Below are positions 46,132 through 61,655 of a stretch of DNA of 64,000 bases, piece after piece. Numbering within the stretch: the stretch's first letter is position 1; each line of letters opens with the position of its first letter. Made by a program: the position numbers and the translations under genes. The DNA is from Georgenia soli (GTDB lineage: Bacteria > Actinomycetota > Actinomycetes > Actinomycetales > Actinomycetaceae): NCBI RefSeq assembly GCF_002563695.1, contig NZ_PDJI01000004.1, positions 2,046,001 through 2,110,000 on the forward strand, in the 5' to 3' direction. The notes under the pieces were generated by a model. That model was not told where the DNA came from. It was given only the letters and a program-made list of their open reading frames with translations, and ran no database searches.

Positions 46132-46324
46132 GGCCCCAGCATGCCGCTCTCCCCGCGCGCGGGCGTGCTTGGGTTAGCTGGTGGACGGCTCGCGGCAGGC
46201 ACGGCGGAGGGCGCCGGCACGGCGAACCGCCTCGGCGCGCCGGACGGGCTCCGCAAGCCGCACCACCGCCGGCGGCCGGTCGTCCCCGGCGCGCCGCCAG
46301 GTGGTCCGCCGTCGGGTCCGGATC

Positions 46325-46888
46325 ATGCGGGCGGTCGTGGTTCTGCTGCTGCTCGTCGGTGCCGGCTCGGCCGTGCACGCCGTCGTCGGCGGTCCGCCGC
46401 CGAAGGCGCTCAGCGCGAACGTCGGTCCGGTGGTCGAGCTGCCCGAGCCGCCCCAGCCGTGGACCGGCGGGCGGACCGGTTGCACGGTTCCGGACCCCAG
46501 CGGGACCGGAGGCTGCGTCACCGGCGCGACCGCGTGGCTGGTGGAGAAGCTGCGCTCCGCCGTCGGGACGAGGCCGGTGACGTGCTGGTCGGAGCACGCG
46601 TGGAACCCCGCCTCCGACCACCCGGCCGGGCGCGGCTGCGACGTCTTCTTCGGCGCCGCGGGGCAGTTCCCGGAGGGCGAGGACCTGGTGGACGGCTGGC
46701 GCACGGCGCAGTGGCTGCGGGTTCACGCCGAGGCGCTCGACGTCTCCTACGTCATCTGGCAGGGGCGGATCTGGATGGCCGACCGGGCCGAGCTGGGCTG
46801 GGCGCCCTACACCGGTGGCGGGGTGTACGACCCCGGCGACGCCACCGGCGGGCACTACGACCACGTGCACGTCTCGCTGCGCGGGTAG
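46325..46888 (+). CDS. Secreted M15-like hypothetical protein
   Basis: A 187-residue protein with an N-terminal hydrophobic signal or anchor (MRAVVVLLLLVGAGSAVHAV). The C-terminal domain has SEHAWNPASDHPAGRGCDVFF, WLRVHAEALDVSYVIW and GGHYDHVHVSL. The spaced SDH..D and H-x-D-H-V-H motifs resemble the zinc ligands of M15 D,D-peptidases and the actinobacterial ARB_07466-like domain. Two pairs of Cys may form disulfides. A wall-modifying role is inferred. The start is uncertain: in-frame GTGs at 46181 and 46304 add an Arg-rich leader. Confidence 0.75.
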   Translation: MRAVVVLLLLVGAGSAVHAVVGGPPPKALSANVGPVVELPEPPQPWTGGRTGCTVPDPSGTGGCVTGATAWLVEKLRSAVGTRPVTCWSEHAWNPASDHPAGRGCDVFFGAAGQFPEGEDLVDGWRTAQWLRVHAEALDVSYVIWQGRIWMADRAELGWAPYTGGGVYDPGDATGGHYDHVHVSLRG

Positions 46889-46961
46889 GACGTGGTGACC
46901 GGTCTGACCGGCCGAAGCGGTCCGGTTTCGGTAGAATCGGTGCCGGAACCCCGACCGGGTT

Positions 46962-47001
46962 CGCGGACGAGGGAGCAGTACCCGCACCACGACAAGACTG
47001 A
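46962..47001 (+). promoter_or_regulatory. Guanidine-III (ykkC-III) riboswitch
   Basis: The conserved blocks GGACGAGG, GTACCCG and GACAAGACTG appear in order. GCGG (46963-46966) pairs with CCGC (46982-46985), and GAGCAGT (46973-46979) with ACTGACTC (46997-47004, one bulge), giving the H-type pseudoknot of this class. A TAGAAT -10 (46932-46937) and a small AACCC/GGGTT hairpin precede it. It ends at the ribosome site GAGGAG (near 47005) of the paired SMR genes, so free guanidinium should expose that site and switch translation on (family knowledge). Confidence 0.88.
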
Positions 47002-47017
47002 CTCACGAGGAGCTGTC

Positions 47018-47332
47018 ATGGCGTGGATCGTCCTGGTCGTCTCGGGCATGCTGGAGGCCGTCTGGGCCTCGGCACTGTCCGCCTCCGAGAACTTCCGACG
47101 GTGGCGTCCCACCGTCCTCTTCCTCGTCTCGATGACCGTGAGCATGGCCGGCCTGGCATGGGCGATGGTCTATCTGCCCACCGGCACCGCCTACGCCGTC
47201 TGGGTGGGGATCGGCGCGACGCTGACCGTGGTGTGGGGCTTCGTGACCGGGCAGGAACGGCCGACGCTCGCCCGCGTCCTGCTGCTCGGCCTGCTGGTCG
47301 GCTCAGTCATCGGCCTGAAGGCGGTGAGCTGA
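47018..47332 (+). CDS. Paired SMR guanidinium exporter, subunit 1
   Basis: A 104-residue, four-helix small multidrug resistance protein of the SugE/Gdx branch. It carries the essential Glu in VSGMLEAVWAS (about residue 14), and LPTGTAYAVWVGIGATLTV in helix 3. Gdx proteins exchange guanidinium for protons. The ATG at 47018 follows GAGGAG, which is the output site of the guanidine-III riboswitch. It is paired one base upstream of a second SMR gene, as in ykkC/ykkD, so an antiparallel heterodimer is likely. Confidence 0.93.
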   Translation: MAWIVLVVSGMLEAVWASALSASENFRRWRPTVLFLVSMTVSMAGLAWAMVYLPTGTAYAVWVGIGATLTVVWGFVTGQERPTLARVLLLGLLVGSVIGLKAVS

Positions 47333-47333
47333 C

Positions 47334-47708
47334 GTGGCGTGGATCATCCTGCTGGTCAGCGCCCTCTTCGAGGCCGTGTGGGCCACGGCTCTGGGGATGG
47401 CAGACGGGTTCACCGAGCCCGTGCCCACCGTCGTGTTCTTCGTCGCGCTCACGCTGAGCATGCTGGGGCTCGGCCGGGCGGTCCGGGACATCCCGATCGG
47501 CACCGCGTACGCGGTGTGGACCGGCGTCGGTGCGGCGCTGACCGTGACCTACGCGATGGCGACCGGGACCGAGAGCATCTCGGTGGGCAAGGTCGTCTTC
47601 ATCACCGGGATCATCGCCGCGGTCATCGGGCTGAAGCTGGTCCCGGGCGCGCCGCGGGCGACGTCGGACGAGACGTCACCCGCAGAGTCGGAGCCCGGCT
47701 CCCGGTAG
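47334..47708 (+). CDS. Paired SMR guanidinium exporter, subunit 2
   Basis: A 124-residue SMR protein with Glu in VSALFEAVWATAL, IPIGTAYAVWTGVGAALTV and a Ser/Glu/Pro-rich tail of about 20 residues beyond the fourth helix. GTG start one base after the partner's TGA (TGACGTG), indicating translational coupling. It would pair with subunit 1 to form the dual-topology transporter. Length exceeds the usual 105-110 residues because of the tail. Confidence 0.93.
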   Translation: MAWIILLVSALFEAVWATALGMADGFTEPVPTVVFFVALTLSMLGLGRAVRDIPIGTAYAVWTGVGAALTVTYAMATGTESISVGKVVFITGIIAAVIGLKLVPGAPRATSDETSPAESEPGSR

Positions 47709-47767
47709 GCCGGGCGACGCGGGGCCCCTGCGGCGAGGCGCCCGCGGCGAGGTCCTACGATGGCGCG

Positions 47768-48340
47768 ATGAGCGAAGCCACCGCGTTCGACGACGGCGCC
47801 AGCACCTCCACGTCCGAGGAGCGCGAGGTCCTCGGCTGGGAGCAGTTCGGCGAGGCCGCGCGCGAGCTGGCGCGCGAGGTCGTCCGGTCGGGCTGGGTCC
47901 CGGACCTCGTGGTCGCCGTCGCGCGCGGCGGGCTCGTGCCGGCGGGCGCGGTCGCCTACGCGCTCGGCACCAAGGCGATGGGCACGCTGAACGTCGAGTT
48001 CTACACGGGCGTCGCCGAGACGCTGCCCGAGCCCGTGGTGCTGCCGCCGCTCATGGACACCTCCGACCTGCCCGGCCGCAAGGTGCTGGTGGTCGACGAC
48101 GTCGCCGACTCCGGTCGGACGCTCGCCCTGGTGATGGACCTCGTCCGGTCCAAGGGGCTGCCCGGCGGCGACCTCGACGGCGACGGCACCCCGGACTTCT
48201 CGGGCGCCGTCGACGCCCGCTCGGCGGTCATCTACGCCAAGCCGCGCTCCGTCATCGACCCCGACTACGTGTGGCGCCGCACCGACCGCTGGATCATGTT
48301 CCCCTGGTCCTCCCAGCCGCCGGTCACCGAGGAGTTCTGA
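47768..48340 (+). CDS. Phosphoribosyltransferase family protein
   Basis: A 190-residue type I phosphoribosyltransferase. The PRPP loop is VLVVDDVADSGRT (expected VVDDxxxTGxT, with Ser for Thr), preceded by DLVVAVARGGLVPAG. A flexible hood segment lies about residues 75-95. The C-terminus (VWRRTDRWIMFPWSS) matches actinobacterial hypoxanthine/xanthine-guanine phosphoribosyltransferase-like proteins. It would make a purine nucleotide from PRPP; base specificity is uncertain. Start ATG at 47768; an upstream open frame overlaps the SMR gene and is not used. Confidence 0.88.
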   Translation: MSEATAFDDGASTSTSEEREVLGWEQFGEAARELAREVVRSGWVPDLVVAVARGGLVPAGAVAYALGTKAMGTLNVEFYTGVAETLPEPVVLPPLMDTSDLPGRKVLVVDDVADSGRTLALVMDLVRSKGLPGGDLDGDGTPDFSGAVDARSAVIYAKPRSVIDPDYVWRRTDRWIMFPWSSQPPVTEEF

Positions 48341-49972: not shown

Positions 49973-50004
49973 TGTGCGCACACGAGAAGGGAGGTGGTCC
50001 AGAG

Positions 50005-50043
50005 GTGAATATTCTTCGGACGCGTGAGGTGGCTACCCGCTAG
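50005..50043 (+). CDS. 12-residue micro-ORF (candidate leader peptide)
   Basis: GTG start followed by codons for M-N-I-L-R-T-R-E-V-A-T-R and TAG. An extended ribosome site GGGAGGTGGTCC (49989-50000) is complementary over nearly its whole length to the 3' end of 16S rRNA. Strong promoter, strong ribosome site and following hairpins together argue that it is translated. No gene follows on this strand, so it is not an obvious attenuator. Function unknown. Confidence 0.55.
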   Translation: MNILRTREVATR

Positions 50044-50044
50044 C

Positions 50045-50162
50045 CCGTCTGTGGACGGACCTCAGGGTCCTCCCGCCCGACGGGCGGCGAGAACCAGGTG
50101 GTCACCGGGACCCGCGGGGGCCGTGACATCGTCCATCACGGCACCCCGGCCGATCGGCCGGG
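50045..50162 (+). ncRNA. Hairpin-rich 3' part of the micro-ORF transcript
   Basis: Four hairpins follow the micro-ORF: CCGTC-TGTG-GACGG (50045-50058), CCGCCC-GAC-GGGCGG (50073-50087), CCGTGA...TCACGG (50121-50141) and the perfect palindrome CCCGGCCGATCGGCCGGG (50145-50162), which may act as terminator. A stand-alone RNA of about 185 nt is predicted. Confidence 0.45.
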
Positions 50163-50209
50163 AACCCGCGGGCTCTTCCCTGCCCGGACGCCGGTCGGCG
50201 GCCCCGACC

Positions 50210-60383: not shown

Positions 60384-61374
60384 AGTTGTTGGCTCCGACC
60401 GGCTGGACGGAGTCGTGCTTGGCGTAGTGGTTGGCTTCGTGCTGGGTCGGGGTGAGGTAGCCGAGCGCGGAGTGGAGTCGTCGGGTGTTGTACCACTCGA
60501 CCCAGGCCATGGTGGCGTACTCGACGTCGGCGATCGACCGGTAGGGGCCGGCGTGGAAGACGTCGGGCTTGATGCACTCGGTCTTGTACAGGCCGACGAT
60601 CGACTCCATCAGGGCGTTGTCGTAGGCGTCGCCGACGCTGCCGATCGAGGGTGCGATGCCCTCGAGGTCGAGGTGCTCGGTGAAGCGCAGCGAGGTGTAC
60701 TGGCTGCCGGCGTCGGAGTGGTGGATCAGCCCGGTGGTGACGGGGTGTCCCTGGTGGCTCCTGGCCCAGGTGGCCATGCGCAGGCAGGTCAGCACCAGGT
60801 CGGTGTGCCTGGTCGTCATCGCGTGCCAGCCGACGACGGCCTGGGAGAAGACGTCGACGGCGAAGGCGACGTAGACGAACCCGGCCCAGGTCCGCACGTA
60901 GGTGAAGTCGGCGACCCAGACCAGGTTGGGGGCCGCGGCGGTGAAGTCGCGGTTGAGCCGGTCCCCGGCCCGGCTGCCGTCCTTGCCCGGGACGGTGGTG
61001 CGGACCTTCCCCGAGCGCACCGCTCCGCGCATCCCGTGCTCGCGCATGAGCCGCTCGAGAGTGCAGCGGGCGACCGTCACGCCGCGGGCGCGCAGGGCGT
61101 GCCAGGTCTTGCGGTACCCGTACAGGCTCTCCGGGGTCGGGCGGCCGTGGGCGTCGAGGCGCAGCCGGCGCAGCTCGTGCAGGACGGTGGCGTCGGAGAC
61201 GGTCCGCGCCGCGGGCCGGCGGGAGCGGTAGGCGTAGTAGGTGCTCGGGGCGATCTTGCAGCCGTGCTCGGTCAGCACGCGGCAGATCGGCTCGACCCCG
61301 AACCTGGCCCGGTTCTCGTCGATGAACCGGCAGATCACCGCTGTGGCGGGTCGAGCTCCCGCGCGAAGAAAGAC
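60382..61374 (-). CDS. IS3-family transposase OrfB (rve integrase core)
   Basis: The DDE catalytic part, about 330 residues. The acidic triad lies in VWVADFTYV, LIHHSDAGSQYTS and NALMESIVGLYKTE. The HTH_21-like start region reads CRVLTEHGCKIAPSTYY. The frame is open upstream to 61506, but the meaningful part starts near VFLRAGARPATAV. It is in -1 phase to OrfA, so production by ribosomal frameshift is expected. The frame ends inside the left inverted repeat. All catalytic residues are intact, so it may be active. Confidence 0.92.
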   Translation of the reverse strand, partial: VFLRAGARPATAVICRFIDENRARFGVEPICRVLTEHGCKIAPSTYYAYRSRRPAARTVSDATVLHELRRLRLDAHGRPTPESLYGYRKTWHALRARGVTVARCTLERLMREHGMRGAVRSGKVRTTVPGKDGSRAGDRLNRDFTAAAPNLVWVADFTYVRTWAGFVYVAFAVDVFSQAVVGWHAMTTRHTDLVLTCLRMATWARSHQGHPVTTGLIHHSDAGSQYTSLRFTEHLDLEGIAPSIGSVGDAYDNALMESIVGLYKTECIKPDVFHAGPYRSIADVEYATMAWVEWYNTRRLHSALGYLTPTQHEANHYAKHDSVQPVGANN

Positions 61375-61655
61375 GCCGCGGACTTCAGGATCTCGTTCGC
61401 CCGCCGCAGCTCGCGGTTCTCCTTCTCCAGCTCCTTGATCCGCGTCGCCTCGGCGCTGGTCACCCCGGGTCTTGCGCCGGCGTCGACCTCGGCCCGGCGC
61501 ACCCACTTACGCAGCGTCTCGTGCCCGACCCCCAGCCTTTCCGCGATCGTCCTGATCGCCTCGTACTCGCTGGTGTAGTCCTGCCGGTGCTCCAGGACCA
61601 TGCGCACAGCGCGCTGCTTGAGCTCCTCCGGGTACCGCTTCGTCGTCTTCGACAT
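61335..61655 (-). CDS. IS3-family transposase OrfA (HTH_Tnp_1)
   Basis: A 106-residue DNA-binding subunit: KRYPEELKQRAVRMVLEHR, YEAIRTIAERLGVGHETLRKWVR with its HTH, and a leucine-zipper-like coiled coil ATRIKELEKENRELRRANEIL (residues about 70-90, given in part). AAGGA precedes the ATG at 61655. Its last codons overlap OrfB, where the -1 frameshift making OrfAB would occur; no classical A6G slippery site is visible. Confidence 0.92.
   Translation of the reverse strand: MSKTTKRYPEELKQRAVRMVLEHRQDYTSEYEAIRTIAERLGVGHETLRKWVRRAEVDAGARPGVTSAEATRIKELEKENRELRRANEILKSAASFFARELDPPQR

Follow-up and report, generated by a model that had tools for sequence, protein, structure and literature searches.

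A guanidine-III riboswitch upstream of paired Gdx-type SMR exporter genes in Georgenia soli

Results

A guanidine-III aptamer adjoins the ribosome site of two SMR genes

The locus lies on the forward strand of a 64,000-nucleotide stretch of the Georgenia soli genome (hereafter, the window), and comparison with congeners delimits it as a cassette interval between two neighbor genes at positions 46889-47767. The upstream neighbor (46181-46888, stop codon 46886-46888) has no Pfam match, and the downstream neighbor (47768-48340) is a phosphoribosyltransferase gene (PF00156). Between them are a Guanidine-III (ykkC-III) aptamer with its upstream hairpin (46942-47007) and two SMR genes (47018-47332 and 47334-47708), all on the plus strand.

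The sequence-only reading of this DNA had described a guanidine-III motif with all conserved blocks and both pseudoknot pairings, and had named the Rfam ykkC-III covariance model as one means of checking it. That search matched RF01763 across the full model (1-67) at 44.2 bits, where the gathering score is 36, with an E-value of 6.4e-6 in a scan of the 64-kb window and 5e-8 for a 500-base stretch. In the alignment the blocks ACGA, GUACCC and ACAAGAC are all intact. The aptamer core starts at 46963 rather than at 46962, as given earlier, with the 5′ strand of the pseudoknot helix P2 (GCGG, 46963-46966), which pairs with CCGC at 46982-46985 according to the sequence, the RF01763 alignment and a comparison of 228 loci. 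The 5′ strand of P1 (GAGCAGU, 46973-46979) is aligned by RF01763 with 46997-47004, which reads by eye as ACUG(a)CUC with a single bulged A at 47001. Also by eye, both partners of three base pairs depart from the Rfam consensus with pairing kept: C-G to G-C in P2, where it is the outer pair, and C-G to A-U twice in P1. Directly 3′ of the aptamer end at 47007 is the Shine-Dalgarno sequence of gene 1 (AGGAG, 47008-47012, assigned by eye), so the motif does end at the ribosome site of the SMR genes as had been proposed.

A whole-genome search returned the window match as the sole RF01763 match and gave no match to Guanidine-I or Guanidine-II, and the window's aptamer is thus the only class I-III guanidine riboswitch of this genome. 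A scan of 46850-47800 for promoter and terminator consensus sequences returned nothing; by eye, TAGAAT at 46932-46937 would place the transcript start near 46944. The motif was reported in 2010 in Actinobacteria and delta-Proteobacteria, upstream of emrE and speB genes (PMC2864571), and later papers treat it as a characterized guanidine sensor. Membership in this riboswitch class predicts guanidinium as the ligand. Affinities of 60-200 micromolar are quoted for guanidine riboswitches (PMC9574504).

Both subunits belong to the Gdx subtype

The two adjacent genes, described earlier as SMR genes with a one-base gap, are exactly that: both match PF00893, at 76.8 bits for subunit 1 (104 aa, ATG start) and 67.1 bits for subunit 2 (124 aa, GTG start), against a cut-off of 23.7. 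The best PDB match of both is 6wk5 (E 4.2e-20 for subunit 1 and 1.4e-19 for subunit 2), with the best EmrE-named chain far behind (3.6e-9 and 3.2e-6). 6WK5 is the guanidinium exporter Gdx-Clo (PMC9574504, PMC7695847). Residues E13, W16, S42, Y59, W62 and K101 are present in both subunits; W16 is described as a conserved residue of Gdx that gives way to Gly or Ala in Qac exporters (PMC7695847). Our residue table across pairs used fixed numbering without alignment, which leaves 10-11 of 93 second subunits out of register.

The SugE model of NCBIfam (NF008512) was the top model of its library for both proteins, at 92.2 and 78.0 bits. Because these scores fall below the required 126, we rejected the SugE equivalog identity and file both subunits as Gdx-type rather than as SugE proper. 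The genome holds one further SMR gene, distant from the window pair (29 and 34 bits). For the urea/guanidine carboxylase model TIGR02712 the genome gave partial matches only, the best at 528.5 bits against a cut-off of 1303.85, and 14 of 14 control genomes did likewise, so that matches at this level carry no information.

Opposite charge biases accompany the paired arrangement

Membrane orientation was predicted from the Arg/Lys bias, for which each K or R was counted towards its nearest loop, as set by fixed residue ranges that we chose. Subunit 1 has a bias of −4 (predicted N-out/C-out), and subunit 2 has a bias of +2 in its core and +4 with its C-terminal tail (predicted N-in/C-in). These opposite values are as expected for an antiparallel heterodimer, and together with W16 in both subunits they support the heterodimeric exporter predicted by the sequence-only reading. 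Published biases of paired SMR subunits center on +4 and −4, and opposite biases are given for over 95% of adjacent SMR pairs (PMC9574504).

The same asymmetry recurs among relatives. A pattern search of 276 loci, excluding three repeats of the window locus, found an aptamer-like motif in front of 93 distinct SMR pairs and 135 distinct SMR singletons. Subunit 1 is negative in all 93 pairs (−2 to −7, and −3 or lower in 91 of them), and subunit 2 counted with its tail is at least zero in all 93. Restricted to its first 104 residues, subunit 2 is positive in 60 pairs, zero in 24 and negative (−1 or −2) in nine. Singletons range from −2 to +1, with −1 in 123 of the 135. Gene order is constant, the first gene being closer to window gene 1 and the second to window gene 2 in 93/93 pairs, and intergenic gaps are −1 to 8 bases (78 pairs).

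The polar extension of subunit 2 comprises residues 105-124 (47646-47705), as delimited by length comparison with relatives. It had been noted earlier as an unusual 20-residue polar tail. Its presence stands, while its rarity does not: all 92 measurable second subunits have a tail, and we rejected the idea that it is an oddity of the window protein. Beyond the GLK motif, first subunits have exactly 3 residues in 93 of 93 cases, second subunits have 6 to 77 (median 20; 92 measured, since one of the 93 lacks the pattern searched for), and for the 135 singletons the range is 3 to 23 (median 3). In composition, these tails favor A, P, G, S, R, E and D and have few hydrophobic residues. Given the predicted N-in/C-in topology, the tail would be cytoplasmic. 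Because subunit 2 is weakly biased in its first 104 residues and never negative once the tail is included, the Arg and Lys residues in the tail strengthen its inward bias, and we would guess that the tail assists in setting how subunit 2 is oriented. A literature search on the tails of paired SMRs gave nothing relevant among the matches listed.

The aptamer may compete with a hairpin at the start region

RNAfold predicts a ligand-free hairpin at 46987-47026 that joins the 3′ half of the aptamer to the start region of gene 1. Its aptamer side consists of CCACG, CA, GAC, G and CUC, from the linker and the P1 3′ strand, and their partners are CGUGG (codons 2-3), UG (start codon), GUC, C and GAG (Shine-Dalgarno sequence). 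This hairpin and P1 are mutually exclusive. We compared the pairing in relatives with pairing after exchange of start regions between loci, a test in which swaps ignore kinship. We first took the duplex that the P1 3′ strand forms with the start region of its own locus (7 of 228 loci unparsed). Its mean in 92 pairs is −5.19 kcal/mol, versus −4.59 when swapped (reached by 0/200 swaps) and −4.06 when shuffled (0/100). In 129 singletons the mean is −5.64 versus −5.06 swapped (0/200), and there is no difference from shuffled sequence (−5.56). Folding of the whole region gave −16.08 for own versus −14.76 for swapped combinations in 92 pairs, and −17.65 versus −16.23 in 130 singletons (0/100 in each case). 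At least four expected base pairs join the aptamer and the ribosome site in 69/92 pairs and 98/130 singletons.

The leader in the window is itself no more than a middling case. It has 8.75 expected pairs between aptamer and ribosome site, its 119 bases fold no better than shuffles (z 0.20), and the mean unpaired probability of the ribosome-site region is 0.61. Because the z value is so low and the ribosome site is only partly hidden, the predicted OFF state is weak at this locus. With this partial support, the alternative hairpin could hide the ribosome site when ligand is missing. Guanidine-III has been described as a translational ON switch that occurs chiefly in Actinobacteria and whose binding frees the Shine-Dalgarno sequence and stabilizes the mRNA (PMC12186494), and the switch direction predicted here agrees with that account.

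The arrangement recurs in many actinobacteria

At E ≤ 0.001, RF01763 was found in 192 of the 396 genomes of the order sample, 182 of them exceeding the cut-off, in 22 of the 121 of the family sample (18 exceeding it) and in six of nine genomes of the genus, all six exceeding it. A query with subunit 2 retrieved 80 loci in named genomes, 66 of which hold a pair. Guanidine-III accompanies 70 of the 80, Guanidine-II three and neither class seven (L076, L098, L109, L110, L126, L127 and L134; L and G numbers are our locus and genome labels). The three Guanidine-II loci (L080, L084, L113) are all Microbacterium pairs related to the window pair, and the aptamer upstream of them is another kind of RNA that senses guanidine as well. 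Among the seven, upstream sequence is short at L098 and L109, and a motif that Rfam does not call can be seen at L110, L127 and L134. At L110 (Propioniferax innocua), the pattern search found a guanidine-III-like motif upstream of the pair in which a long insertion separates GUACCC from CAAGAC.

In the pooled set, the loci of the subunit 2 query were joined by those of the family and the order, among them 118 of 119 further places in the order (the place in G236 was left out). Weaker RF01763 matches of the order sample were left out of the pool, which disfavors pairs because pair-linked aptamers score lower. A further 38 motif matches without a recognized SMR gene were excluded from the counts; most look like chance matches of a short pattern, and seven have the full CCGG/CCGG form. 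The family and order part alone contains 33 pairs among 155 loci, near the published figure of about 20% of Gdx exporters encoded as gene pairs (PMC9574504). The arrangement is an ordinary one, seen in many actinobacteria, and the window locus is a further member of a known system.

Several other loci came to light in these searches. At L012 (G018) and L171 (G466), Guanidine-III (49.7 and 54.1 bits) precedes a GNAT acetyltransferase with no exporter (PF00583 at 29.9 and 40.9 bits for the pieces examined), possibly a guanidine-linked acetyltransferase. At L222 (G470), L246 (G359, contig 8) and L249 (G183), Guanidine-III (49.2, 44.6 and 44.4 bits) is followed by a small membrane-like protein that could be another type of guanidine transporter; the two checked, those of L222 and L246, have no Pfam match. 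L006 (G087) and L227 (G419) carry Guanidine-III followed by a broken SMR gene, which is shortened in one case and interrupted by a stop and a frame change in the other. Elsewhere in the window, Rfam places the actinobacterial sRNA Ms_IGR-5 at 49980-50181 on the plus strand (74.2 bits) and an ALIL pseudoknot at 61246-61377 on the minus strand (62.6 bits), the latter being a frameshift signal of IS3-type elements.

Aptamer form tracks exporter architecture

The outer P2 pair of the window aptamer is G-C, versus C-G in the consensus, and this difference sorts with exporter architecture. Of the 93 pairs, 75 have G-C at this place, 17 have C-G and one has G-U. C-G is the form of 133 of the 135 singletons, the other two having T-A and G-C. 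In the family and order sample alone, pairs divide into 20 G-C and 13 C-G, and singletons into 0 G-C and 122 others. The association holds in one direction: the G-C form is hardly ever seen outside pairs, and pairs do not need it. The spacing between ACGA and GUACCC is seven bases in all 92 parsed pairs and variable in the 130 parsed singletons, 55 of which share the pair length. With kinship ignored, the outer P2 pair is a standard one in 228/228 loci (C-G, G-C, T-A and one G-T), as is P1 pair 38-60 in all 222 parsed loci (C-G, A-T and T-G; 6 of 228 unparsed). Judged from these two base pairs, compensating changes appear to maintain the pairing of both P1 and the P2 pseudoknot.

A midpoint-rooted tree of the 93 concatenated pairs places the 17 C-G pairs in one 21-row part together with four G-C rows, and the remaining 72 rows are all of the G type; support at this 21/72 split is moderate (89/87, with the bootstrap not settled). 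Shared ancestry is the simplest reading of the link between aptamer form and pair architecture.

The lone G-C singleton, L130:2501-3025 of Janibacter terrae NBRC 107853, is a single 174-residue frame behind a GCGG-type aptamer. It looks like a shortened gene 1 run in frame into gene 2, and thus derived from a pair. A review of SMR transporters states that no simple fused SMR has been detected (PMC9574504), and the L130 fusion may stem from decay or from faulty assembly.

The cassette lies where six congeners show no SMR gene

Among nine genomes of the genus, only that of the window has the motif before a pair. Five congeners (G022, G052, G076, G107 and G482) have Guanidine-III elsewhere, with a CCGG-type aptamer before a singleton. 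In G482, G119, G052 and G076 the orthologues of both neighbor genes are adjacent with no SMR gene between them, and in G482 about 50 bases separate the upstream stop from the downstream start. G483 and G107 have the downstream orthologue and no SMR gene within the 14 kb examined, and G022 and G094 have only distant matches to the downstream gene. The simplest reading of these comparisons is that the whole cassette of riboswitch and pair was gained at a new site and the singleton lost; the alternative is independent loss of an old pair in the other congeners. The window pair falls in an open 49-row fork of the pair tree with Kocuria, Nesterenkonia, Brevibacterium, Nocardiopsis and others, and no donor is singled out.

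Three congeners carry another adjacent SMR pair at other sites (L287 in G119, L288 in G107 and L289 in G483). G119 and G483 have no Guanidine-III match, and the single match in G107 is elsewhere on the contig than its SMR pair.

Discussion

We consider it very probable that this locus is a guanidinium-inducible export operon, composed of a riboswitch and a Gdx heterodimer. The reading builds on features observed directly, namely the aptamer, the two genes, their Gdx residues, the opposite charge biases and the recurrence of the arrangement. In the mechanism that we infer, the mRNA leader is a guanidine-III aptamer whose P1 3′ strand and preceding linker, when no ligand is bound, would pair with the Shine-Dalgarno sequence and start region of gene 1 and keep translation low. 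Guanidinium would then stabilize the P1/P2 pseudoknot, withdrawing the P1 3′ strand and freeing the ribosome site so that both adjacent genes can be translated. The two Gdx-type subunits would insert in opposite orientations and assemble into a heterodimer that exports guanidinium by proton coupling. The predicted steps of the scheme are thus ligand binding, the ON direction with its hairpin, heterodimer assembly and transport.

Could the riboswitch be genuine and the pair still export mainly other cations, of the quaternary ammonium or drug-like Qac type, with guanidinium as a side substrate? SMR exporters are described as promiscuous towards hydrophobic substituted cations (PMC7695847), and both proteins have weak matches to many Qac models. 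These matches are all far under their cut-offs among the Qac models listed, however, W16 in both subunits marks Gdx rather than Qac (PMC7695847), and guanidine riboswitches of classes II and III both precede relatives of the pair, all of which makes a primarily Qac-type exporter very unlikely. Even less probable, in our view, is that each subunit forms a dual-topology homodimer and that the second gene is a decaying duplicate or serves another role. Retention of the active-site residues in both subunits and the weak core bias of subunit 2 in many pairs would fit such an arrangement, but subunit 1 is negative in every pair whereas singletons stay between −2 and +1, and the fixed gene order and the short gaps between the genes also speak for a heterodimer.

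The aptamer itself might have degenerated, lost guanidinium binding and been kept by descent. Its 44.2 bits are indeed lower than the scores of the aptamers of five congeners (48.1 to 63.3 bits). The three conserved blocks are nevertheless intact and the helix differences are two-sided with pairing kept, and we regard a degenerate aptamer as the least probable of these explanations. The favored reading, a guanidinium-inducible export operon, gives the locus a specific annotation as a guanidinium-inducible Gdx pair, where both genes would otherwise be labeled multidrug resistance.

Beyond the annotation, an aptamer variant tracks exporter architecture. A tentative and rather doubtful extension is that pair-linked aptamers largely form a co-inherited subtype (GCGG/CCGC with the flipped outer P2 pair, a fixed seven-base spacer, and a hairpin that hides the ribosome site and may extend to codons 2-3) that travels with the pair as a cassette, that such a cassette replaced a singleton here, and that the tail has a topological or regulatory role. 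In a limited search of partly available literature, we did not find the subtype link or the regular tail described. With the tail a regular feature of second subunits, what asymmetry does in SMR heterodimers becomes accessible to experiment.

In the accounts of guanidine-III and of paired Gdx exporters available to us in part, we found nothing from which the locus departs. Like other members of the RF01763 class, the aptamer matches the complete model, with the same blocks and the same pseudoknot, and sits before an SMR (emrE/sugE) start codon in the same phylum; it differs in the outer P2 pair (G-C for C-G), in two A-U pairs in P1 and in one bulged base in P1. Both subunits align without gaps to Gdx-Clo (6WK5) over residues 1-102/104 and share E13, W16, S42, Y59, W62 and K101 with it. 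Gdx-Clo is a dual-topology homodimer (PMC9574504), whereas two genes with opposite biases are found here and subunit 2 has a C-terminal tail. Two adjacent SMR genes with opposite Arg/Lys bias are also the arrangement of the paired SMR (PSMR) Gdx heterodimers. YkkC and YkkD of Bacillus subtilis are likewise an adjacent SMR pair with opposite Arg/Lys bias, and YkkC also has a polar C-terminal extension like that of subunit 2. The regulatory element is where they differ, YkkCD being under a guanidine-I element and the window pair under guanidine-III.
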